From: an alpha proteobacterium AAP38
GTDB lineage: Bacteria; Pseudomonadota; Alphaproteobacteria; Azospirillales; Azospirillaceae
Direction of reading: 5' to 3'
NCBI GenBank assembly: GCA_001296005.1
Contig: LJHR01000047.1
Span: 62,001-126,000 of the forward strand
DNA length: 64,000 bases
The translations under genes and the position numbers were made by a program. The notes under the pieces were generated by a model, which searched no databases, was not told the DNA's origin, and worked only from the letters and a program-made list of their open reading frames with translations. Positions 5,732 to 17,207 of the stretch are shown here, one piece after another; positions within the stretch are counted from its first letter, which is position 1; every line of letters starts with the position of its first letter.

Positions 5732-5925
5732 GGCAAGGCTCCTGAAAATCCAAAAAAGGACCGATGGCCGGCAGGCTATGCCGGCTGAACGGTTGGGGCA
5801 AGGGCGGGGTGGAAACGGTCCCGTCTGAAAATCGGTTAATGGTTGTGGCCGATCACTTGCGCTCGCCTTTCCACCATACCACATGCGATGCTGGGGACAT
5901 TGGTTCAAGGGGGGGAATGCAAACG

Positions 5926-6996
5926 ATGGAACTCGGGATCTTCGCGGGCGTCGTGGCCCTGTTCGGCGTTCTGCTGGCCTTTGCCGGCATCAAGACCGTG
6001 CCGCAGGGCATGGAGTATACGGTGGAGCGGTTCGGCCGCTATACCCACACGCTGCGGCCCGGCCTGCATTTCATCGTGCCGTTCATCGACGTTGTCCGCG
6101 CCAAGATGAACATGATGGAAATCGTGCTGGATGTGCCCAGCCAGGAGGTCATCACCAAGGATAATGCCATGGTGAAGGTCGACGGCGTCGTCTTCTATCA
6201 GGTGTTGGACGCTGCCAAGGCCGCCTATGAGGTCAGCCAGCTGCAGGTCGCCATTCTGAACCTGACCATGACCAATATCCGCACCGTCATGGGCTCCATG
6301 GATCTGGACGAACTGCTGTCGCAGCGCGACCGCATCAATGCCCAGCTTCTACATGTGGTGGACGAGGCAACGCAGCCCTGGGGCATCAAGGTCACCCGCA
6401 TCGAAATCCGCGACATCCAGCCGCCGCGCGATCTGGTGGACAGCATGGCCCGGCAGATGAAGGCAGAGCGCGAGCGCCGCGCCCTGATCCTGGAGGCCGA
6501 AGGTGCCCGGCAGGCGGCAATCCTGAAGGCCGAGGGCCAGAAGCAGGCCGCGATCCTGGAGGCCGAGGGCCGCCGCGAGGCCGCCTTCCGCGACGCAGAG
6601 GCGCGCGAGCGTGAGGCCGAGGCGGAAGCCGCCGCGACCCGGATGGTGTCCGACGCCATATCCGCCGGCAATGTGCAGGCCATCAATTACTTCGTGGCCC
6701 AGCAATATCTGACCACCTTCAAGGAATTCGCGCACACCCCGAACCAGAAGGTATTCTTCATGCCGATGGAGGCGACCGGCATCATCAGCTCGCTGGGCGG
6801 TCTGGCTGAACTGGCCAAGGACGCGTTCAAGGGCGATGGCGGCAGCGGCCCCACCGTGCCGCCGGCACCCAAACCGCCCCGCAAGCCCTCGGCGTCGGCC
6901 CTGCCCGCCACCGGCGGAACCAACGCCGAGCAAGTGGCTGCAATCAAGTCCGCGCAGCAGCAGCCATCGCCGTGGGGCGAAAATAGCGGCGCCTGA
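5926..6996 (+). CDS. qmcA: SPFH/stomatin-like membrane protease-regulator (QmcA)
   Basis: About 356 residues. An N-terminal membrane anchor ([17 protein letters not shown]) is followed by an SPFH domain with [39 protein letters not shown] and [14 protein letters not shown], very close to E. coli QmcA. After it comes a coiled-coil of repeated [14 protein letters not shown] units (residues about 190-240). A Pro-rich, Ala-rich tail of about 50 residues is longer than in E. coli. The start is ambiguous between 5917 and 5926; the G-rich ribosome site is ten bases from the second, so I prefer it. The next gene encodes NfeD, its usual partner. The pair is thought to organise membrane microdomains and protein quality control. 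Confidence 0.92.
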
Positions 6997-7026
6997 AACA
7001 ACTGAACCGGCATATGGGAGGAAGCG

Positions 7027-7467
7027 ATGGAAGGGTTTCGCGTTCTCTACTGGTACTGGTGGTGCCTGGCGCTGGTCCTGGCGGCACTGGAAATGTTCAT
7101 TCCAGGGGCCGCCCTGCTGTGGATTGGCGGGGCGGCGGGCATTGTCGGCGTGATGGCGCTGGTCTTCGATATCGGGCTGGTGACAGAGCTGGTGCTGTTT
7201 GGCGTGCTGGCGGTGCTGGCCTGGTTCCTGTCGCGTCTGCTGGCGCGGCGGGACCCCGATGACGCGCAGTCAGGCACCTTGAACCGCCGCGGGGAACAGT
7301 ACCTGGGACAGGTGCTGACCTTAGAGGAAGCGATCGTGAACGGCTATGGCCGGGCCCGTGTCGCCGACGGCATCTGGCGGGTGGCCGGCGCCGCCGATCT
7401 GCCACAGGGCAGCCGTGTGCGGGTCACGGGCGTCGATGGCGCCATCCTGCGCGTGGAAGGTGCGTAA
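7027..7467 (+). CDS. NfeD family membrane protein
   Basis: 146 residues, preceded by GGAGG at proper spacing. Two to three hydrophobic helices (WYWWCLALVLAALEMF, LLWIGGAAGIVGVMALVF, LVLFGVLAVLAWFL) fill the first 80 residues. A short C-terminal OB-fold with GEQYLGQVLTLEEAIVNGYGRARVADGIWRV and GSRVRVTGVDG follows, the standard NfeD1b layout. It lies 30 bases downstream of qmcA. SPFH-NfeD gene pairs are widespread and their products interact at the inner membrane. This is equivalent to E. coli YbbJ. Confidence 0.9.
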   Translation: MEGFRVLYWYWWCLALVLAALEMFIPGAALLWIGGAAGIVGVMALVFDIGLVTELVLFGVLAVLAWFLSRLLARRDPDDAQSGTLNRRGEQYLGQVLTLEEAIVNGYGRARVADGIWRVAGAADLPQGSRVRVTGVDGAILRVEGA

Positions 7468-7715: not shown

Positions 7716-7747
7716 CAATGGATTGCAAGATGATGGGCAGGGTTCAG

Positions 7748-9079
7748 ATGCAACGGGTACATTACCTTCGTGCAGGCGACGACACCGTCTCGGCCATGGC
7801 GCCGCGGCCCCCTGTCGCCCTGCGCGATCCGTTGACGGGATTGCTGAACAAGCACGGCTTCATCCGCGAGGGAAGCCGCCTGCTGCCCATGATGGTTCTG
7901 GCGGGGGAACATCCGCATGTGGTCTTCATCGAGCTGAACAATTACGAAGGCATCGTCTCCCGCATGGAGTATGAGGAGGCGCTGGAACTGCTGCACGCCA
8001 TGCGGCGGCGCCTGGAGCTGGCCTTTGGCGACGATGTTCTGCTGGCACGCCTGGACAGTGAACGTTTCGTGGCCCTGCTGCCCGACGCGGGCGACAGTCT
8101 GGAGGCCCTGAACCGGGCGCTGGAGGCCCCTGTGGTCATCGGCGGCCATGGCTATCATCTTTCCATCACCTGCGGCGTGGCCTCCTACCCCGAAGCCGCC
8201 GACGATATGCATATGCTGGTTGTGGCCGCCCGCATCGCTCGGCGCGATGCGGTCAATGAGGGCCGCTCCGTGGGCTTCTTCGCCAGCGACCTGCGCAAGC
8301 GTCTGGCCCGCAGCCGTGCCATTGAAGACGGGCTGTGGGCAAGCCGGGCCGGCGCCGGCATCTCCTTGCTGTATCAGCCCAAGGTCGAAATCCATTCGGG
8401 CCGCGTGATGGGGGTGGAAGCGCTGATGCGCTGGTCCCATCCGGAGCTGGGCCCCATCTCACCAGCCGAATTCATACCGGTGGCCGAACGGACCCGCACC
8501 ATCAACCCGCTGGGCGAATGGCTGATCCGGGAATCGCTGCGCCAGCAGGCGGATTGGCGGCGGGACGGCATGGACCTGTCCATGGCCATCAACATCTCCC
8601 CCGTGCAGTTGCTGATAGAGCCCAGCCACGCCTCTGTCCTGGAAATCCTGGTCGATGAATGTGCGCGTCTGGACCTGGATCGCCGGAAGGTGGAACTGGA
8701 GATCACCGAAGGCATGCTGACTGACGAGCGTGCCATGGTGCAGGTCCGCCGGCTGGCCGATGCGGGCTTTTCCATTGGCATTGACGATTTCGGGCGGGAC
8801 CATTCGGCCCTGTCCTTGCTGGTGGAGAGCCCGGCCAATACCTTGAAGATCGACAAGAGCTTCGTGGACAATGTCCTGCGCAACCCGCGCCAGGCCACAA
8901 TCATCCGCTTCATCACCGAACTGGCCCATGATCTGGGCATGCGGACAGTGGTGGAAGGGATCGAGCATATCCGCCAGCTGGTGGCCGTCGCCGGTGCCGG
9001 CTGTGACTATGGCCAGGGCTATTTCTATTACCGCCCCATGTGCGCAGGCCGCATCCTGGATCTGCGCCACGCCGCCTGA
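7748..9079 (+). CDS. Degenerate GGDEF-EAL protein, c-di-GMP phosphodiesterase candidate (copy A)
   Basis: 443 residues from the ATG at 7748. This start makes it exactly as long as, and collinear with, the tandem copy B (the DPLTG motif falls at residue 27 in both). An in-frame ATG at 7718 is less likely. Residues about 25-200 form a GGDEF fold whose active site is replaced by DSERF, so cyclase activity is not expected. Residues about 205-443 are an EAL domain with EALMRW, NIS, EITEG, IDDFG, KIDKSF, EGIE and QGYFYYRP all present, so phosphodiesterase activity looks possible. The loop after DDFG reads RDHSAL instead of the usual TGYSSL. There is no signal peptide or membrane span; it is cytosolic. 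Confidence 0.88.
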   Translation: MQRVHYLRAGDDTVSAMAPRPPVALRDPLTGLLNKHGFIREGSRLLPMMVLAGEHPHVVFIELNNYEGIVSRMEYEEALELLHAMRRRLELAFGDDVLLARLDSERFVALLPDAGDSLEALNRALEAPVVIGGHGYHLSITCGVASYPEAADDMHMLVVAARIARRDAVNEGRSVGFFASDLRKRLARSRAIEDGLWASRAGAGISLLYQPKVEIHSGRVMGVEALMRWSHPELGPISPAEFIPVAERTRTINPLGEWLIRESLRQQADWRRDGMDLSMAINISPVQLLIEPSHASVLEILVDECARLDLDRRKVELEITEGMLTDERAMVQVRRLADAGFSIGIDDFGRDHSALSLLVESPANTLKIDKSFVDNVLRNPRQATIIRFITELAHDLGMRTVVEGIEHIRQLVAVAGAGCDYGQGYFYYRPMCAGRILDLRHAA

Positions 9080-9190
9080 AACCGGCTGACCATCGCCTGC
9101 CAGGAACCTTGGAAACCTGACCGTCTGAACAAATGGCCTAACCCGGAAGACATAGTAGGTTGTATTCTGTAGAACCGGAAGGGTTCAGGA

Positions 9191-10522
9191 ATGATGGAAG
9201 CGCACAAGATTTTGCAGGCGATGCCCTCGGAATGCCCCTGCGCCTATCAGGCGTCGGCGCTGCTGCACGACCCCTTGACCGGAATGCTGAACAAGCACGG
9301 GTTCGTGATGGAGGGCAACCACCTGCTGACGGCCCTATCGGCCAGCGGCGGCAATGCCATCCTGATCTATATGGAACTGAACGATTACGACGGGCTGATC
9401 TCACGCCTGGGCTATGACGCCGCCCTGGTCCTGCTGGTCACGATCCGGGAACGCATGGTGCTGGCCTTTGGTGAGAATGCACTGCTGGCCCGCTTCGACA
9501 GCGAACGTTTCGCTGCTCTGCTGCCCGATGCCAATGCGGACGTGGAGGGTATCATCCGTCTGCTGGAGGCGCCGCTGCGGGTGGACAACACCACCTGCCA
9601 CCTGTCCCTGTCCTGTGGCGTGGCCAGCTTCATCGACGCCGCCGACAATATGGACATGCTGGTCATGGCCGCCCGGTCCGCCCGGCAGGAGGCACGGCGC
9701 AGCAGCCGACAGATCGGCTGGTTTGCCGACGATCTCCGGCGCAAACTGGCCCGGCAGCGGGCCTTGGAGGACGGCCTCTGGTTTGCCCGTAGCGGGGCCG
9801 GCATGTCGCTTCTGTATCAGCCGAAGATCGATATCCGGGCCGGGCAGGTGTTCGGGGTGGAGGCGCTGCTGCGCTGGCGCCACCCCGAGTTCGGCTCCGT
9901 GTCGCCTGCGGAATTTATCCCGTTGGCCGAACGCAACCAGACCATCGTCCCAATCGGCGAATGGCTGATGCGGGAAGCGCTGCGCCAGAAGCACCTATGG
10001 CGGCAGCAGGGGCGCAGCATCCATCTGTCCATCAATGTCTCCCCGCTTCAGCTTCAGCCGGACAATTGCGCCCCTTCCGTCCTGGAAATCCTGACAGAGG
10101 AATGCCGGCGCCTGGGCCTTGAACGGGATAAGCTGGAGCTTGAGATCACAGAGGGATTGTTGAGCAATGAGGCGGTGATGGCCCAGGTAAAGGCCATCGC
10201 CAAGGAGGGGTTCGGCATCGCCGTCGACGATTTCGGCCGCGACCATTCGGCCCTCTCATTGCTGGTCAATTGCCCGGCCACGACCCTGAAGATCGACAAG
10301 AGCTTCGTCGATAATGTCGTGGAGAATGAACGCCAGTTGGCCGTGATCCAGTTCATCGTCACCCTGGCCCGCCGTCTGGGCATGCAGACCGTGGTGGAGG
10401 GGGTGGAACACCTGACGCAGCTGGTGGCGCTGGCCGATGTAGGATGCGATTACGGCCAGGGATATTTCTACTACCGCCCCCTGACAGCCCAGCAGGTCCT
10501 GGACCTCCGACACAAGCATTGA
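9191..10522 (+). CDS. Degenerate GGDEF-EAL protein, c-di-GMP phosphodiesterase candidate (copy B)
   Basis: 443 residues, a close tandem paralogue of copy A with the same domain plan. The GGDEF site is again DSERF. The EAL catalytic set is EALLRW, NVS, EITEG, VDDFG, KIDKSF, EGVE and QGYFYYRP, with the same RDHSAL loop variation. The 111-base gap and the shared upstream string AGGGTTCAG before both starts support local duplication. N-terminal residues 1-26 differ strongly between copies (this one has CPC near residue 15-17), so the copies may take different inputs. Both should act on cytosolic c-di-GMP unless the altered loop has disabled catalysis. Confidence 0.88.
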   Translation: MMEAHKILQAMPSECPCAYQASALLHDPLTGMLNKHGFVMEGNHLLTALSASGGNAILIYMELNDYDGLISRLGYDAALVLLVTIRERMVLAFGENALLARFDSERFAALLPDANADVEGIIRLLEAPLRVDNTTCHLSLSCGVASFIDAADNMDMLVMAARSARQEARRSSRQIGWFADDLRRKLARQRALEDGLWFARSGAGMSLLYQPKIDIRAGQVFGVEALLRWRHPEFGSVSPAEFIPLAERNQTIVPIGEWLMREALRQKHLWRQQGRSIHLSINVSPLQLQPDNCAPSVLEILTEECRRLGLERDKLELEITEGLLSNEAVMAQVKAIAKEGFGIAVDDFGRDHSALSLLVNCPATTLKIDKSFVDNVVENERQLAVIQFIVTLARRLGMQTVVEGVEHLTQLVALADVGCDYGQGYFYYRPLTAQQVLDLRHKH

Positions 10523-10688: not shown

Positions 10689-12761
10689 ATGGCCAGCAGC
10701 GCCGACCTTGACGAGAAGCCCGCCCCGCCGCCGCCCCGCCGTGGGGTGGAGATGATGGCGCCCTCGTCGCCCGTCGATCTGGGCGGGCGGTGCGAGATCA
10801 TGCCCGGCACGGCCCTGCCTGCCCTGGATTCGGCAGGCGGCCCCGCCTTTGCGGCGCGGATGAGCCGGGACCGCAAGACGGAAGTCTTTGCCATCGTCAC
10901 CGACCGGTCCGTGCCGGCCCGCATCGACATGATGGCCACCTACCGTGCCATCGAGAATCCGGCGGTATTGCGCCTGATGGACTGGGGCACGGTGGATTGG
11001 ACGCCGGAGGGCAAGAAGCGTTTCGTCCTGATCTATGAACGGCCCGGCGGGCGCAGGGTCATGCAGGACATGGGCGAGACGCGCGAGCCCATGTCGGACG
11101 ATACGATCAGCCGTTCGCTGATGCCGACACTGCTGTTCGCGCTGCGGGAAATGAATGCGCGGGGCATGACCTGTGGCGCTATCCGGCCCACCAACCTGTT
11201 CCAGAAGGACCCCGCCTCCCCCACCGTCACCATCGGCGACTGCCTGTCGACACCGGTCGGCTATGGTCAGCCCTTGCTTGTGGAGACCATAGAGCGCGGG
11301 ATGGCGCAGCCGGCGGGGCGCGGCCCCGGCACCGTTGCCGATGACCTTTACGCGCTGGGCGTCACGCTGCTGGTGCTCTATCTGGGCCGCAATCCGCTGG
11401 CCGATCTGGATGATGAAAGCATCCTGAAGCTGAAGATGGACAAGGGCACCTATCCGGCCCTGACCAGCCAGGTGCGCCTGCCACAAAGCCTGGTGGAGCC
11501 GCTGCGCGGCCTGATGATCGATGATCCCAAGCAGCGCTGGTCCGTCTCCGACCTGGATCTGTGGCTGCAGGGCCGGCGGATGTCGCCCAAGCAGCCGCAG
11601 GTGCCGCGCCGTGGTGCCCGCCCGTTTGAGTTCCAGGGCGAGGATTTGATGCATTGCCGGGCGCTGGCCCGGTCGCTGACCCGGCACAGTGCCGCCGCCG
11701 CTGCCCTGATCGAACGGGGCGATGTGGAGAAATGGGTGCGCCGGTCGGTGGGGGATGAGGCACGGGCAGAGGCCATGCAGACCGCCATCGCCTCTGCCGG
11801 GGCCGGCGGACGCGGTGCCAGCCAAGAGGACAAGCTGGTTACCCGCGTCTCCATCGCGCTGGACCCGCCGTCACCCATCCGCTATCGCGGCATCTCGGTG
11901 CTGCCCGACGGTCTGGGCACGGCGCTGGCAGAGGCCATCTGGCAGAATAGCGGCGTGCAGCCCTTTGCGGAATTCGTCCTGGCGCAGTTCCCGCATTTCT
12001 GGGTCAACTGCCAGACCGATTTCCGGCCCGAATATGTGCCCATGGTGCAGGCCTATGACGGCTATCGCGCCCTGCTGGAACATGTCGGCATGGGGTTCGG
12101 GATCGAACGCATCGTCTATGAACTGTGCCCCTCCTGCCCCTGCCTGTCGCCGCAACTGCGCGACCATTATGTGTTGAGCCCGGCGGAGCTGCTGTCCGCC
12201 CTGGACCAGATCGCCCTGAAGCCGAACCGGGGGCGTGACCCGGTGGACCGACACGTGCTGGGCTATATCACCACGCACCACAAGAAGCTGAATGACCGGC
12301 TGCTGGTGCCTTTGTCGAATCCGCATGATCCGGCGCGGCGAATGATCGCCATGATCACGGTCCTGGCCGATGTGCAGAACCGGTTCGGTCCCGCCCGCCT
12401 GCCCAACCTGTGCGGCTGGCTGGTCGCGCTGATGGACCCGGTCTTCAAGCGCTTCAAGAACCGGGAGACGCGCGACCGCATGAAGGCGGAAGTGAGCAAT
12501 GTGGCGCGCGATGGGGTTCTGGATGCCATCGTCCGCATCGTCGACAATGTCGATGTCATCCGCGCCGACGACAAGGGCTTCCTGGCCGCGATGCGCCAAT
12601 ATGAAGGCCTGACACGGCAGATCGAGAAACTGAAATCCACGGCCAATGATAGGACGGCCCTGGCCGATGGCACCGGGCGACAGATCGCCGCCGTGGTCAC
12701 CGCCATCATCGCCGGCATGACCATGATCGGCACCGTCCTTTACATGCTGAGGCTGGCATGA
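10689..12761 (+). CDS. Tail-anchored pseudokinase
   Basis: 690 residues from the ATG giving MASSADLDEK; an upstream in-frame ATG at 10566 would add a poor leader. Residues about 30-300 resemble a Ser/Thr kinase fold. The VAIK lysine is missing (FAIV at 67-70), HRD-K-P-x-N reads CGAIRPTN (163-169 region, catalytic Asp is Ala), and DFG reads DCL near 184. Fold residues ADDLYALG (about 217-224) and the DPKQRW arginine (about 280) remain, so it is a kinase fold without catalysis. Residues 330-660 are helical and unrecognised, with a Cys cluster (CPSCPC). One hydrophobic helix at about 666-688 ends the protein, placing the bulk in the cytosol. The stop overlaps the next start (ATGA). Confidence 0.75.
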   Translation: MASSADLDEKPAPPPPRRGVEMMAPSSPVDLGGRCEIMPGTALPALDSAGGPAFAARMSRDRKTEVFAIVTDRSVPARIDMMATYRAIENPAVLRLMDWGTVDWTPEGKKRFVLIYERPGGRRVMQDMGETREPMSDDTISRSLMPTLLFALREMNARGMTCGAIRPTNLFQKDPASPTVTIGDCLSTPVGYGQPLLVETIERGMAQPAGRGPGTVADDLYALGVTLLVLYLGRNPLADLDDESILKLKMDKGTYPALTSQVRLPQSLVEPLRGLMIDDPKQRWSVSDLDLWLQGRRMSPKQPQVPRRGARPFEFQGEDLMHCRALARSLTRHSAAAAALIERGDVEKWVRRSVGDEARAEAMQTAIASAGAGGRGASQEDKLVTRVSIALDPPSPIRYRGISVLPDGLGTALAEAIWQNSGVQPFAEFVLAQFPHFWVNCQTDFRPEYVPMVQAYDGYRALLEHVGMGFGIERIVYELCPSCPCLSPQLRDHYVLSPAELLSALDQIALKPNRGRDPVDRHVLGYITTHHKKLNDRLLVPLSNPHDPARRMIAMITVLADVQNRFGPARLPNLCGWLVALMDPVFKRFKNRETRDRMKAEVSNVARDGVLDAIVRIVDNVDVIRADDKGFLAAMRQYEGLTRQIEKLKSTANDRTALADGTGRQIAAVVTAIIAGMTMIGTVLYMLRLA

Positions 12762-13270
12762 GCGCGTCGCTTGGTAAACGCCCGCCCAAGCGGCGCAGCG
12801 GCGGCGGCAGTGCGCTGCTGCTGTTGCTGCTGCTGGCCCCGGCGGGCCTGATGATGATGCCGACCAGCGTGCTGCTCCTGGCCGGTCTGGCGCCCACCTT
12901 CGTCGCCTACCTGATCGACCGTGATCCGGAGAAATCGGCGGCCATGACGGTCGGAGCCATGAACCTGTGCGGGGTGGCGCCCTTTATCGTCCGGCTGTGG
13001 CAGCGCGGGCATGAAATGTCCATCACGCTGCGCATGCTGGCCGATCCGGGCACCTGGCTGATCATGTTCGGCGCGGCGGCCATCGGCTGGCTGATGTATT
13101 TCTTCATCCCCCAGATCGTCGCCGCGATCATGAGCCTGCGCAGCCAGGCCAAGATCAAGGAGCTGGAGGAACGGCGCAGCCTGCTGATTGCCGATTGGGG
13201 AACGGAAATCATGGGCAAGGGCGATGACAAGCCGGAACCGGCAGGCCTGATCGACGACCCGCAAGATTGA
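12758..13270 (+). CDS. Small integral membrane protein coupled to the pseudokinase
   Basis: 170 residues beginning in the ATGA overlap with the pseudokinase stop. After a basic N terminus (KRPPKRRSG) come hydrophobic spans at about 20-50 (possibly two), 58-80 and 95-120. A charged cytosolic tail of about 45 residues follows, with a short coiled stretch (QAKIKELEERRSLL). No named family is recognised. Translational coupling and the single C-terminal anchor of the pseudokinase suggest the two form a membrane complex. The stop is 60 bases upstream of the NMT1-GGDEF gene. Confidence 0.75.
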   Translation: MSASLGKRPPKRRSGGGSALLLLLLLAPAGLMMMPTSVLLLAGLAPTFVAYLIDRDPEKSAAMTVGAMNLCGVAPFIVRLWQRGHEMSITLRMLADPGTWLIMFGAAAIGWLMYFFIPQIVAAIMSLRSQAKIKELEERRSLLIADWGTEIMGKGDDKPEPAGLIDDPQD

Positions 13271-13330: not shown

Positions 13331-14959
13331 ATGCCCATACCCAAGCATGCCTTCCTTCTGACGGTCACGGGCTGGATTCTGGCCCTGCTGGTCTGCACCC
13401 ATTTCTGGGTATCGCCGGTTCTGGCCCAAGCGGCAGGCGAAGGCCTGCTGACCCCGGTGCGGCTACAGCTGAAATGGACGCACCAGTTCCAGGGGGCGGG
13501 ATTCTATATCGCGCTGGAGAAGGGATATTACCGAGAGGCCGGCCTGGATGTCCGCATCCTGGAGGGTGGGCCCACGATGGACGCGGCCCAGCGCGTCACC
13601 GATGGCGAGGCGGATTTCGGCGTGGGCAGCGCCGGCCTGCTGGTGGAAAGGGTGAAGGGCCGGCCCGTAGTGGCCATGGCAGTCCTGTTACAGCATTCGC
13701 CCTTTGTCCTGCTGACCCGCACGGACACCGGCCCGCCGCATGTCCATGCCCTGCCCGGCCACCGGCTGATGCTGGAAACCCATGCGGAGGAGCTGCTGGC
13801 CTATCTGGCGGTCGAACGCGTGCCAGAGGACAAGCTGACGGTACTGCCGCATAGCGGGTCGGTGGAGGCGCTGATCAAGGGGGAGGTCGATGCCATTACG
13901 GCCTACACAACCAGCGAACCCTATGACCTGCGTGTGGCGGGCATCCCCTATCAGGTATTTTCCCCGCGCGCGGCGGGCATCGATTTCTATGGCGATACCA
14001 TCTTCACCTCCGAACGCATGGTGCGGGAGAACCCCGCCGTGGTGGAGGCCTTCCGCCGGGCCAGCCTGCGCGGCTGGCGGGACGCTCTGTCAAACCCGGA
14101 GGCCGCCATCGACCTGATCCTGCGCACCTATGCGCCCGGCCTGGAACGGCCACGCCTGCTGTTCGAAGCGGATGAGATGGCGCGCCTGATGATGGCCGAC
14201 ATGGTAGAGGTCGGCTACATGCATGAGGGGCGCTGGCGGCATATCGCGCAGGGTTTCGCGGCGGCGGGACTGGTGCCCGGCGATGTCGATCTACGCGGCT
14301 TTCTCTATATCCCCGATCATCAGCCCGACCTGACATGGTTCTATGCGGCCTTTGCCGCGCTGGCCTGTATCACCCTGGCCGTCAGTCTGGTCACCGCGCG
14401 TTTCCGGAACCTGAACCAGCGCCTGCAGGCGGAGGTGGCGGAACGGGCGCGGCTGGAGGCACATTTCCGCGAACTGGCCACCGTGGATGCCCTGACCGGC
14501 CTGCCCAACCGCCGCGCCTTTCTGGACAAGGCACAGGCCGAACTGGCCCGCTCCCGGCTGACCGGCACGCCCTTGTCGCTGCTGATGCTGGATATCGACC
14601 ATTTCAAATCGATCAATGACCGGTACGGCCACGCCGCCGGCGATGCCAGCCTGATCGCCTTCCGCAGCGCCTGCCGGCAGGCATTGCGCGATCAGGATGT
14701 GATGGGCCGTATCGGCGGGGAGGAGTTTGCCGTCCTGCTGGGCGATACGGGGATCGCGGGCGCCCTGGCCGCCGCAGAACGGCTGCGCGCCTCGGTTGAG
14801 GGGATGGGAACGGACGTGGTGGACCCCTGCCTGCTGACCGTCAGCGTCGGCGTCGCCATGCTGGCCGAGGGCGAAGAACTGGATCAGTTGCTCAACCGTG
14901 CCGACCGCGCCCTCTACACCGCCAAGATGGAAGGCCGCAACCGCGTGGTTATGGGGTAA
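13331..14959 (+). CDS. NMT1/THI5-type periplasmic sensor diguanylate cyclase
   Basis: 542 residues. A signal anchor (1-33, ending VLAQ) leads to an NMT1/THI5-like substrate-binding domain at about 40-300 (LQLKWTHQFQGAGFYIALEKGYY, GEADFGVGSAGLL). This fold normally binds pyrimidine precursors or aromatic/nitrile ligands. A membrane helix lies at about 335-356, then a short coiled linker and a GGDEF domain from about 375. The active site is GGEEF (462-466), DIDHFK supplies metal and base contacts, and RDQD five residues upstream matches the RxxD inhibitory I-site. It should be a ligand-regulated, product-inhibited diguanylate cyclase in the inner membrane. It lies downstream of two EAL genes acting in the opposite direction. 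Confidence 0.9.
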   Translation: MPIPKHAFLLTVTGWILALLVCTHFWVSPVLAQAAGEGLLTPVRLQLKWTHQFQGAGFYIALEKGYYREAGLDVRILEGGPTMDAAQRVTDGEADFGVGSAGLLVERVKGRPVVAMAVLLQHSPFVLLTRTDTGPPHVHALPGHRLMLETHAEELLAYLAVERVPEDKLTVLPHSGSVEALIKGEVDAITAYTTSEPYDLRVAGIPYQVFSPRAAGIDFYGDTIFTSERMVRENPAVVEAFRRASLRGWRDALSNPEAAIDLILRTYAPGLERPRLLFEADEMARLMMADMVEVGYMHEGRWRHIAQGFAAAGLVPGDVDLRGFLYIPDHQPDLTWFYAAFAALACITLAVSLVTARFRNLNQRLQAEVAERARLEAHFRELATVDALTGLPNRRAFLDKAQAELARSRLTGTPLSLLMLDIDHFKSINDRYGHAAGDASLIAFRSACRQALRDQDVMGRIGGEEFAVLLGDTGIAGALAAAERLRASVEGMGTDVVDPCLLTVSVGVAMLAEGEELDQLLNRADRALYTAKMEGRNRVVMG

Positions 14960-14960
14960 C

Positions 14961-17207
14961 TCACACCCCCACCGGCGCCACCCCGATATACCTGCCCGCA
15001 TCCAGTGCCGGCATAGGCCGGCCATAGAGATAGCCCTGCAGGAAACCGCAGCCCAGGCGTGACAGTTCGTCCGCCTGTTCATCCGTCTCCACCCCTTCGG
15101 CCACCACCTCTAGCGCCAATTGCTGCGCCAGGGCGAGCATGGTGCGCAGGATGGTCCGGCTTTCGAAGCGGTCGATCATGCTGGACACGAAGGCCCGGTC
15201 CACCTTCAGGAAATCGAACGGCAAGGTCTGCAAATAGGACAGGTTGGAATAGCCGGTGCCAAAATCATCCATGCAGAGCCGGATGCCCAGGTCACGCAGG
15301 CCCGTCAGTATTTCCGCCGCATGCGCCGGATCGCCGATGATGGTGCTTTCCGTGACCTCCAGTTTTAGCAGGGTCGGATCGACGCCACTGTCAGCGATCA
15401 CCTTGCGCACATTGTCCAGGAACCCCGGCTCCGACAATTGAGCGGCGGAGATATTGACGGAGACCCAGACGGGGCGGCCCGCGCGCCGGGTCCATTCCGC
15501 CGTCTGCACCGCCGCCTCCCGCATCACCCAGGTACCGATGGGCACGATCAGGCCCGTCTCTTCCGCCGTCGGGATGAAGGCGGCGGGGATGACGATCCCG
15601 CGCGATGGGTGGTTCCAGCGCACCAGCGCTTCAAAGGCCACCACCTCCCGCGTCGCGGCATCGACGATGGGCTGGTAATAAAGCTCGAACTGCCCCTGCT
15701 TCAGGGCGGTGCCCAGCTCCATGGTCAGGCCCAGACGCCCGCCTTCGGCCCGGTCGGCGCCGATCACCACCTCCTGCAGGCGGCCATAGGCGCGTTTGGA
15801 GGCCTGCATGCTCTCCTCCGCACGGGCCAGCAGCTCTTCCCCATGCCGCCCTCCGCAATTGCACCAGGCAAGGCCGGGGGAGGACATGGGATGCACCTCC
15901 CGGCCCGCCAGTATCGCCGGCTCGCTGACCGCCGTCACCACGGCCTGCACCATGTCACGGGCGGCGGAGAGAGCGGGCGCGCCGGGCAGCAGCAGGGCAA
16001 ACTGATCCGCGCCCGTGCGCCCGCAGATGGCGCCAGGGCCAGCGGCAGCGGTAATACGATTGGCGGTCTTGACCAGCAACCGGTCACCCGCCGCCACACC
16101 CAGTTCCTGGTTGATATCGCGGAAATGGCGCAGGTCGATGATGCCGACGGCCACGGTGTCGGCCTTGCCCGCCTGTATCTGCCCCAACCGCCCTTCAATG
16201 GCCTGGATGAAGCCAAGGCGGTTCAGAAGGCCCGTGGCGCGGTCATGGGTGCGGTCCTGGGACAGTTGCGCCACCAGCCGGGCATTTTCCAGACTGACGG
16301 CGACGGTGCGTGCGAACAGCGACAGGGTCCCCACATCAGGGTGCCGGCCCGGCGGCAGACGCGACAGGTGCAGGACAATAGCGGCCTCCCCAGACAGGGT
16401 GCTGGACAGCGCGAACCAGCCGCTCCCCCGCTCTGGCGCGCCGGAGGCAAGCGCCGCCGCCACCTGCTGCCCGATCTCCGCTGGCACCAGATGCGAAAGG
16501 GAGCCGGGCGTCATGGCCAGCCCGCCCTCCCCGATCCCGGCCAGCAGGCGCGGTTCGCCCGCCGTGCCATCGGGCAACCGGTCACAGCGGACCAGAAGCA
16601 CACCCGCCCCGGGCCCGGCAACAGTGGCCAGCGCCTCCACGGCGGCATGGGCCAGCCGTTCCGGGTCATGTTCGCCAAACAGCCGGGCCGTGGCATCCAG
16701 CACATGGGTCAGGCCGGCCCGGTGGTCATCCAGTTCGCGGATCTGTTCATAGGCGCGCAAGGCCGTATAGACGGAGGTCCAGAGGCGCCGTGCCGTCAGT
16801 TCATCCTTGGCGCGGTAATCATTGATGTCATACCGCTCCACCACGTCGCGCTCCGGCGCCTGTCCCGGCTGGCCGGTGCGCAGAATGATGCGGACATCGT
16901 GGTTTCCCATCTCCTCCCTCACGGTGCGGACCAGGCGCAGGCCCGAATCCTCCGCCTCCATCACCACATCCAGCAGGATCAGGGCGATGTCGGGATAGAC
17001 CGCCAGCATCTGGCGCGCATCCGCCGCCGAATAGGCCGACAGGAACAGCAGCTTGCGGCCCGCATGGGCCATGTCACGCAGGGCAAGGCGCGTGACAGAA
17101 TGGACCGACGGATCGTCATCCACAATCAGGACCAGCCATGGCGGCAGCGACGGGGTTACCGGCACCGGTGCCGGTTCCGCCGCAAAGTCCAGCAGGTCAT
17201 CCGCCAT
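14961..17207 (-). CDS. REC-DUF3369-GGDEF-EAL response regulator, c-di-GMP phosphodiesterase
   Basis: 748 residues. The receiver domain (about 24-150) has DDD at 30-32, phospho-acceptor Asp80 in LILLD and Lys134 in YRAKD. A DUF3369 sensor region follows (about 160-320). The GGDEF domain (about 325-475) has GADQF at the active site and so is probably inactive. The EAL domain (about 490-740) is complete: EALVRW, NIS, EVTES, DDFGTGYSNL, KVDRAF, EGVE, QGYLYGRP. It is therefore predicted to be a phosphorylation-controlled phosphodiesterase in the cytosol. No histidine kinase gene is next to it. It converges on the NMT1-GGDEF cyclase with a one-base gap and diverges from the antiporter gene. Confidence 0.92.
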   Translation of the reverse strand: MADDLLDFAAEPAPVPVTPSLPPWLVLIVDDDPSVHSVTRLALRDMAHAGRKLLFLSAYSAADARQMLAVYPDIALILLDVVMEAEDSGLRLVRTVREEMGNHDVRIILRTGQPGQAPERDVVERYDINDYRAKDELTARRLWTSVYTALRAYEQIRELDDHRAGLTHVLDATARLFGEHDPERLAHAAVEALATVAGPGAGVLLVRCDRLPDGTAGEPRLLAGIGEGGLAMTPGSLSHLVPAEIGQQVAAALASGAPERGSGWFALSSTLSGEAAIVLHLSRLPPGRHPDVGTLSLFARTVAVSLENARLVAQLSQDRTHDRATGLLNRLGFIQAIEGRLGQIQAGKADTVAVGIIDLRHFRDINQELGVAAGDRLLVKTANRITAAAGPGAICGRTGADQFALLLPGAPALSAARDMVQAVVTAVSEPAILAGREVHPMSSPGLAWCNCGGRHGEELLARAEESMQASKRAYGRLQEVVIGADRAEGGRLGLTMELGTALKQGQFELYYQPIVDAATREVVAFEALVRWNHPSRGIVIPAAFIPTAEETGLIVPIGTWVMREAAVQTAEWTRRAGRPVWVSVNISAAQLSEPGFLDNVRKVIADSGVDPTLLKLEVTESTIIGDPAHAAEILTGLRDLGIRLCMDDFGTGYSNLSYLQTLPFDFLKVDRAFVSSMIDRFESRTILRTMLALAQQLALEVVAEGVETDEQADELSRLGCGFLQGYLYGRPMPALDAGRYIGVAPVGV

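Follow-up and report, generated by a model that had tools for sequence, protein, structure and literature searches.

A conserved two-gene membrane unit with a degenerate Hanks-type kinase in Alphaproteobacteria and its tentative link to the flagellum

Bacterial pseudokinases have been sorted into several families, and a review of them treats ActPs1-3, GLW, CP1, DYD and DLHK (PMC12599244). Here we describe a gene pair in a 64,000-nt stretch of contig LJHR01000047.1 of the alpha proteobacterium AAP38 (the window, to which coordinates refer unless another stretch is named). Gene A encodes a pseudokinase and gene B a small membrane-protein partner. On sequence criteria the pair is firmly a two-gene membrane unit with a dead kinase, and it probably serves the flagellum. 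It is widespread and, as far as our literature search shows, apparently unstudied: none of the entries listed concerns the pair, in a search whose coverage mostly excluded subscription journals. In two Azospirillum RefSeq records A is labelled 'serine/threonine protein kinase', despite the loss of the residues of an ordinary kinase, and B is a 'hypothetical protein'. Should the connection with the flagellum prove right, the flagellar components of a large bacterial class would include a pseudokinase.

EssB/YukC resembles A in having all three catalytic motifs degenerate and a single membrane pass (PMC12599244). It is a non-catalytic, tethered scaffold of the type VII secretion machine and by analogy may serve as a model for the role of A (PMC12599244). 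Unlike A, EssB/YukC belongs to the Firmicutes and is unclassified in the review (PMC12599244). A in turn differs in carrying a large domain between the kinase-like domain and the membrane helix. Nor does it lie in a type VII secretion locus; its recurrent neighbours are hisZ, purA, rpoH and rluD.

MviN is a lipid flippase whose pseudokinase forms part of one large membrane protein, whereas A has a separate small partner without any family match. The mycobacterial protein (ActPs3) is like A in that a pseudokinase domain resides in a membrane protein, and it is described as needed for peptidoglycan synthesis (PMC12599244). The GLW pseudokinases of proteobacteria are defined there by GLW in place of HRD and by leucine or tryptophan at the beta3 lysine (PMC12599244); the corresponding loop of the A family reads H(R/G)xIRPxN. 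Among 79 aligned members the first position is H in 71/79 and the second R or G in 74/79, followed mostly by A, S, N or G, and the beta3 position is V or I in 67/79 and L in 7/79. The DLHK pseudokinases share with A the lost beta3 lysine and an HRDLRP-like loop (PMC12599244). They are said to keep the HRD aspartate and to have no membrane regions (PMC12599244), and A is the reverse, with the aspartate in 2/79 members and a C-terminal hydrophobic helix in 75/79. Judged by these positions, A is set apart from GLW and DLHK, the two families of the review whose defining features were compared.

The family alignment identifies A as a Hanks-type kinase fold in which all three catalytic motifs are degenerate family-wide. 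The Pfam Pkinase match of A alone is weak (E 0.035). Sixty of 63 family members match Pkinase at E <=1 (best 2e-10), and a profile built from the 63, the kind of search that the initial annotation had proposed for the N-terminal part, aligns with protein kinases of solved structure across both lobes (profile positions 55-296, E 2e-15). That annotation had also read A as keeping kinase-fold residues while lacking the VAIK lysine, the HRD aspartate and a proper DFG. The reading is correct and extends across the 79 members. A retains DDLYALG and DDPKQRW and has AIVT at VAIK, CGAIRPTN at the HRD loop and GDC at DFG. The VAIK lysine is replaced by V, I or L in 74/79 members and kept in 1/79, and the DFG phenylalanine position is F in 1/79; the family thus lacks the VAIK lysine, HRD aspartate and DFG motif of an active Ser/Thr kinase. 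Two structure models of A have low confidence (mean pLDDT 38.0 and 44.4). With a low-confidence model, the 50 best Foldseek rows are all kinase-fold chains, headed by the PAN3 pseudokinase (E 4e-4, TM 0.26); these rows are weak support because the model alignment held only seven close sequences, 75-99% identical.

Several residues of A are nevertheless strongly kept, and they bear on the alternative that A is another kind of enzyme. SelO, a pseudokinase turned AMP-transferase, is the precedent given in the review (PMC12599244). The active site would be Asn169 of the catalytic loop (76/79), the acidic position at the DFG aspartate (71/79; E 42/79, D 29/79), or the invariant Y477 and C485 (both 79/79) with D520 (78/79) and H522 (75/79). 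The loss of the VAIK lysine and the failure of the post-kinase region to match any known enzyme family make this reading unlikely. The aspartate of DxxxxG is also kept (78/79).

The post-kinase region gives no Pfam match at E <=0.5. A PDB profile search with the C-terminal region of A recovers no known fold among seven weak rows, the top one being a 25-residue match to designed armadillo repeats (whole-sequence E 0.0009, 45-96 per stretch). The initial annotation had described an unrecognised helical region with CPSCPC. The absence of a recognised family and the presence of CPSCPC stand; the cysteines other than C485 are not conserved, and the helicity comes from the low-confidence model. A multi-cysteine metal site at CPSCPC was rejected as unlikely, since C485 alone of the motif is conserved. 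The C-terminal membrane helix that had been proposed recurs as a hydrophobic 19-mer within the last 60 residues, by hydropathy, in 75/79 members.

The pairing of A with B, likewise put forward as an anchored pseudokinase coupled to a small multi-span protein, is borne out well beyond the window genome. A profile of B, run on 120 stretches, places B directly downstream of 113 of 123 A frames. Eight further A frames, one being half of a broken A, have no B although 1.3-9 kb of contig follow, and two lie at a contig end. Three of the copies without B are second copies, the genome having an A-B pair elsewhere. The gap between A and B, measured in 69 pairs, has a median of 11 bp; it is <=100 bp in 65, and 11 have the same four-base overlap as the window. 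There, A starts with ATG at 10689 and stops at 12759-12761, and ATGA is common to its end and to the start of B, as had been noted. The B protein carries three to four hydrophobic segments and ends in a charged tail in which WG is almost invariant; it matches no known family, and neither Pfam nor PDB searches give the B family a consensus match.

With the A sequence as query, A was found in 82/82 genomes and 13/13 genera of the order, and in 131/385 genomes of the class (132 before removal of genome G104, whose match at E 5e-4 looks like a generic kinase match). Most matches span the whole of A, and some consist of fragments at contig ends or of split frames. Relatives with a name come from Niveispirillum and Azospirillum, both Alphaproteobacteria. 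The 63-member profile, searched against 398 genomes of the phylum (38 genomes at E <=1e-10), finds full-length relatives in the same class only; outside it, the matches cover kinase domains and, in a few cases, also the segment directly after. The C-terminal region alone, searched in 299 genomes, is matched as a whole in eight genomes of the same class, with weak partial matches in three others. The observation of A with B is more than chance, because the family spans the class together with its partner.

The link to the flagellum is carried mainly by co-retention and co-loss. FlhA (FHIPEP) occurs in 221/385 genomes of the class and in 118/131 of those with A. A flagellin domain was found in 12 of the 13 A-bearing genomes without FlhA (10/11 plus 2/2), so a flagellar marker, FlhA or flagellin domain, is present in 130/131 carriers, the exception being G193. 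Among the 254 genomes without A (G104 included), FlhA is present in 103; of the 150 without FlhA (G104 aside), 78 were tested and six have flagellin. The order of the window is of little use here, having FlhA in 80/82 genomes; G058 has flagellins instead, and G072 is the other genome without an FlhA match. The whole-class Fisher test of FlhA against A (p 5.8e-22) is uncorrected for ancestry and is not relied on. A test within families that hold at least one carrier, over the handle range G082-G305 for which all needed family labels are known, gives 77 genomes with A and a marker, one with A and no marker, five without A with a marker and eight with neither (p 1.3e-7). The five are G127, G136, G184, G224 and G305; the eight, from seven families, are G107, G238, G239, G250, G182, G291, G205 and G260. 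When genomes without A are restricted to those at least 95% complete, three have a marker and seven do not (p 1.5e-7).

Co-occurrence was tested because the arrangement in one genome, G213, could by itself be chance. There, two A-B pairs lie in tandem (A-B-A-B) directly before flhA and genes of the motA and flbD types, on the same strand (L129, 3238-12892); the motA-type and flbD-type matches score below the NCBIfam cut-offs. A third A copy of G213 directly follows a purA-like gene, identified by eye; within 8 kb of this copy, the other strand carries flgF/G-type and flgH genes (L167, 215-11229). In G424 an A-B pair stands between a methyl-accepting chemotaxis gene and, farther off, flgC and fliE (L184, 7012-18683). 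The scan for flagellar neighbours used a 20-sequence reference set; it found L129 and, with the flagellar genes 7 kb away, L184, and L167 was added by eye.

The region upstream of A supplies a second line of secondary evidence. CtrA, required for flagellar genes in several Alphaproteobacteria, has the full site TTAA-N7-TTAA (PMC6180460). Eight of 77 loci have the exact site in the 250 bp before A, against a shuffle mean of 0.8 and with 0/200 shuffles reaching eight; two families contribute two of the eight boxes each. Upstream of other genes it occurs in 0/47 (purA), 0/40 (hisZ), 0/42 (rluD) and 1/47 (rpoH) loci. With one mismatch allowed the count upstream of A is 22/77 against 9.1 expected. 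A spacer test on 122 A genes gives nine exact boxes for N7 against 0-6 for the other spacers from N2 to N14, and 35 against 16-25 with one mismatch.

A number of points weigh against a flagellar role. Flagellar genes lie near A in only 3/127 stretches from two genomes, which chance could give. A is not a general flagellar part, because 103 FlhA-bearing genomes of the class are without it, absence here being scored by a single-sequence search. G193, which is 98% complete, keeps A-B with no FlhA or flagellin match, and some single flagellin matches elsewhere are weak (E about 1e-9). The co-occurrence tests count genomes rather than independent events and use handles and family labels transcribed by hand, and the within-family one was designed once the first table was known. 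Seven of the eight exact CtrA boxes lie in AT-rich stretches, near-CtrA boxes are mildly in excess in the rpoH control as well (9/46 against 12.6% in shuffles), the window itself has only a two-mismatch box upstream of A, and a sigma-54 promoter box upstream of A shows no excess over the reverse strand. Genome reduction, finally, could remove A and flagella together.

This last point belongs to an alternative that is possible, if on the doubtful side, namely that A-B is a general membrane or stress complex and that its association with flagella is due only to common descent and to both being lost together from reduced genomes. The surroundings of the pair fit it. In a survey of 77 loci (76 fetched, plus the window; gene names from NCBIfam on one locus, L038) a purA cluster lies on the same strand in 47 loci, 45 of them within 3 kb upstream, an rpoH cluster on the other strand in 47, an RluD-type cluster in 42 and a hisZ cluster in 40, and the commonest place of the pair is purA-A-B-rpoH. 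Ancestry can explain much where an order carries both A and FlhA nearly throughout, and G193 retains the pair without a marker. Genome reduction alone is nevertheless a strained account, because five of the marker-less genomes in A-bearing families that have no A (G107, G238, G239, G182 and G205) are 2.0-3.5 Mb in size. The CtrA-type boxes upstream of A also speak against it.

We tentatively favour the reading of A-B as an inherited two-gene inner-membrane complex, a non-catalytic scaffold or switch that serves the flagellum rather than c-di-GMP turnover. A and B would be inherited as one unit and come into physical contact in the inner membrane. A would be a Hanks-type kinase after the loss of catalysis, with a cytosolic pseudokinase head, a helical domain and one C-terminal membrane helix that packs with the three to four membrane segments of B. 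The complex may act without phosphotransfer, as a scaffold or conformational switch in the manner of EssB/YukC, in the assembly, placement or output of the flagellum. Stated more specifically, and a shade more cautiously, A-B may be a pseudokinase complex in the membrane, so far undescribed, that belongs to the alphaproteobacterial flagellum and is expressed under CtrA in several lineages, the dead kinase being a structural or switching part of the export or placement machinery. What the sequences themselves show is the family, its degenerate motifs, the coupling of A and B, the common purA-A-B-rpoH setting and the presence of flagellar genes in almost every carrier examined.

The initial annotation had instead proposed a c-di-GMP membrane signalling module, with A-B as the pair through which the NMT1-GGDEF cyclase and the EAL proteins work. 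Its description of the flanks, two EAL genes and an NMT1 cyclase on the same strand as the pair, is accurate, and Pfam assigns both upstream genes to GGDEF-EAL and the downstream gene to NMT1-GGDEF. The module itself is highly improbable. The complete order EAL-EAL-A-B-NMT1/GGDEF occurs in 4/11 genomes of the genus (G000, G068, G070 and G073), and G074 nearly repeats it across two contigs, the first EAL gene being represented by its last 64 residues. Elsewhere in the genus, G071 has a single EAL gene, and EAL is missing both from G075, which has A-B, and from the stretch of G069, where A-B lies beside stomatin/NfeD genes. In G072 a contig end falls inside A and A-B-NMT1/GGDEF is visible. G066 (L038) has the order hisZ-purA-A-B-rpoH-rluD and G067 A-B-rpoH-rluD. 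Since the A of the window groups next to that of L038 in the tree (support 99), the pair probably moved inside the genus, and the c-di-GMP setting in the window would come from that move.

With the window left out, GGDEF or EAL genes adjoin A at 4/230 positions against 11/1186 for other genes in the same stretches (p 0.29; the set includes L038 but not L152-L159, the near kin of the window). Three of the four belong to one clade (L120, L132 and L137) and the fourth is a PAS-GGDEF-EAL gene in L043, which speaks for the module. In the clade, three small genomes of one family, a PAS gene of the opposite strand sits immediately upstream of A, and its GGDEF domain is degenerate in L120, where it was tested. 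Among 30 hand-chosen, mostly small A-bearing genomes, GGDEF and EAL are each matched in 29 (for EAL, 27 above the cut-off). G213 has A-B pairs and no GGDEF or EAL match in its genome. The c-di-GMP module was rejected on these three counts: the order in a part of one genus, the lack of enrichment elsewhere and the state of G213. The initial annotation had made its case depend on the gene order recurring beyond this genome; the order with the c-di-GMP genes comes close to failing this, and A-B clearly does not. The two GGDEF-EAL genes and the NMT1-GGDEF gene lie outside the A-B unit. The coordinates of the pair, its parts and its flanking genes are listed in Table 1.

Table 1. Features of the A-B locus in the window
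Feature	Position	Strand	Description
A	10689..12761	+	690 aa; pseudokinase, post-kinase region and C-terminal membrane helix
Pseudokinase domain of A	10764..11621	+	residues about 26-311; kinase profile match and family alignment
Catalytic-loop remnant GMTCGAIRPTNLFQ	11163..11204	+	residues 159-172; HRD aspartate lost, Asn169 kept
DFG-position remnant IGDCLS	11232..11249	+	residues 182-187
Post-kinase region	11622..12653	+	residues 312-655; no known family; mostly helical in a low-confidence model
CPSCPC	12126..12143	+	residues 480-485; only C485 invariant in the family
C-terminal membrane helix of A	12684..12740	+	residues 666-684; hydropathy
B	12758..13270	+	170 aa; membrane protein, 3-4 hydrophobic segments, charged C-terminal tail, conserved W147-G148
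Two GGDEF-EAL genes	7718..10522 (7718-9079, 9191-10522)	+	adjoin A-B in part of the genus only
NMT1-GGDEF gene	13331..14959	+	adjoins A-B in part of the genus only

Two further candidates for the pair were tried and set aside. A chemotaxis link finds no enrichment, methyl-accepting-type genes lying beside A at 1/230 positions against 7/1186, and for a defence system PADLOC yields generic kinase-domain matches.

Around the pair, the two GGDEF-EAL genes of the window look like a tandem duplicate, because each of them matches, at 57-60%, the counterpart of the other in relatives. With DSERF at the position of the GGDEF signature, their cyclase domain may be degenerate and the proteins phosphodiesterases. 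On the minus strand at 14961-17207, a response regulator with DUF3369, GGDEF and EAL domains is convergent with the NMT1-GGDEF gene. At 5821-7467 lie a Band 7/SPFH and an NfeD gene. In L153 (G069), which has no EAL genes at this place, these two still adjoin A-B, and their site is perhaps where the pair first settled when it moved.

Outside the class, the A profile finds its three best matches in active-looking Hanks-type kinases (L216, 1024-3333; L161, 3502-5487; L160, 4988-7627 on the minus strand). Like A, they have a kinase domain followed by a similar segment, RGDxxRW...LDPxxPL; unlike A, they have the beta3 lysine, HRDIKPGN and DFG intact and no match past about profile position 455. The helical module that follows the kinase domain seems to be repeated in L161 and L216, unlike in A, and is possibly a solenoid. 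A looks like a dead branch of an active kinase lineage, because the motifs of these three are intact and the following segment is common to them and A. The A profile also matches, through the segment after the kinase domain, a helicase-fused, 2108-aa protein of L162 (3137-9463, minus strand) that combines a DLHK-like kinase domain (AVLT, HRDLRP, GFG) with DUF4011, AAA_11/AAA_12 and a nuclease domain. Within the family, the A of G422 is apparently broken into two overlapping frames (L175, 1-2051), and B-less second copies of A in L130, L131 and L134 form one clade beside a short gene that is glyoxalase-like in L130.

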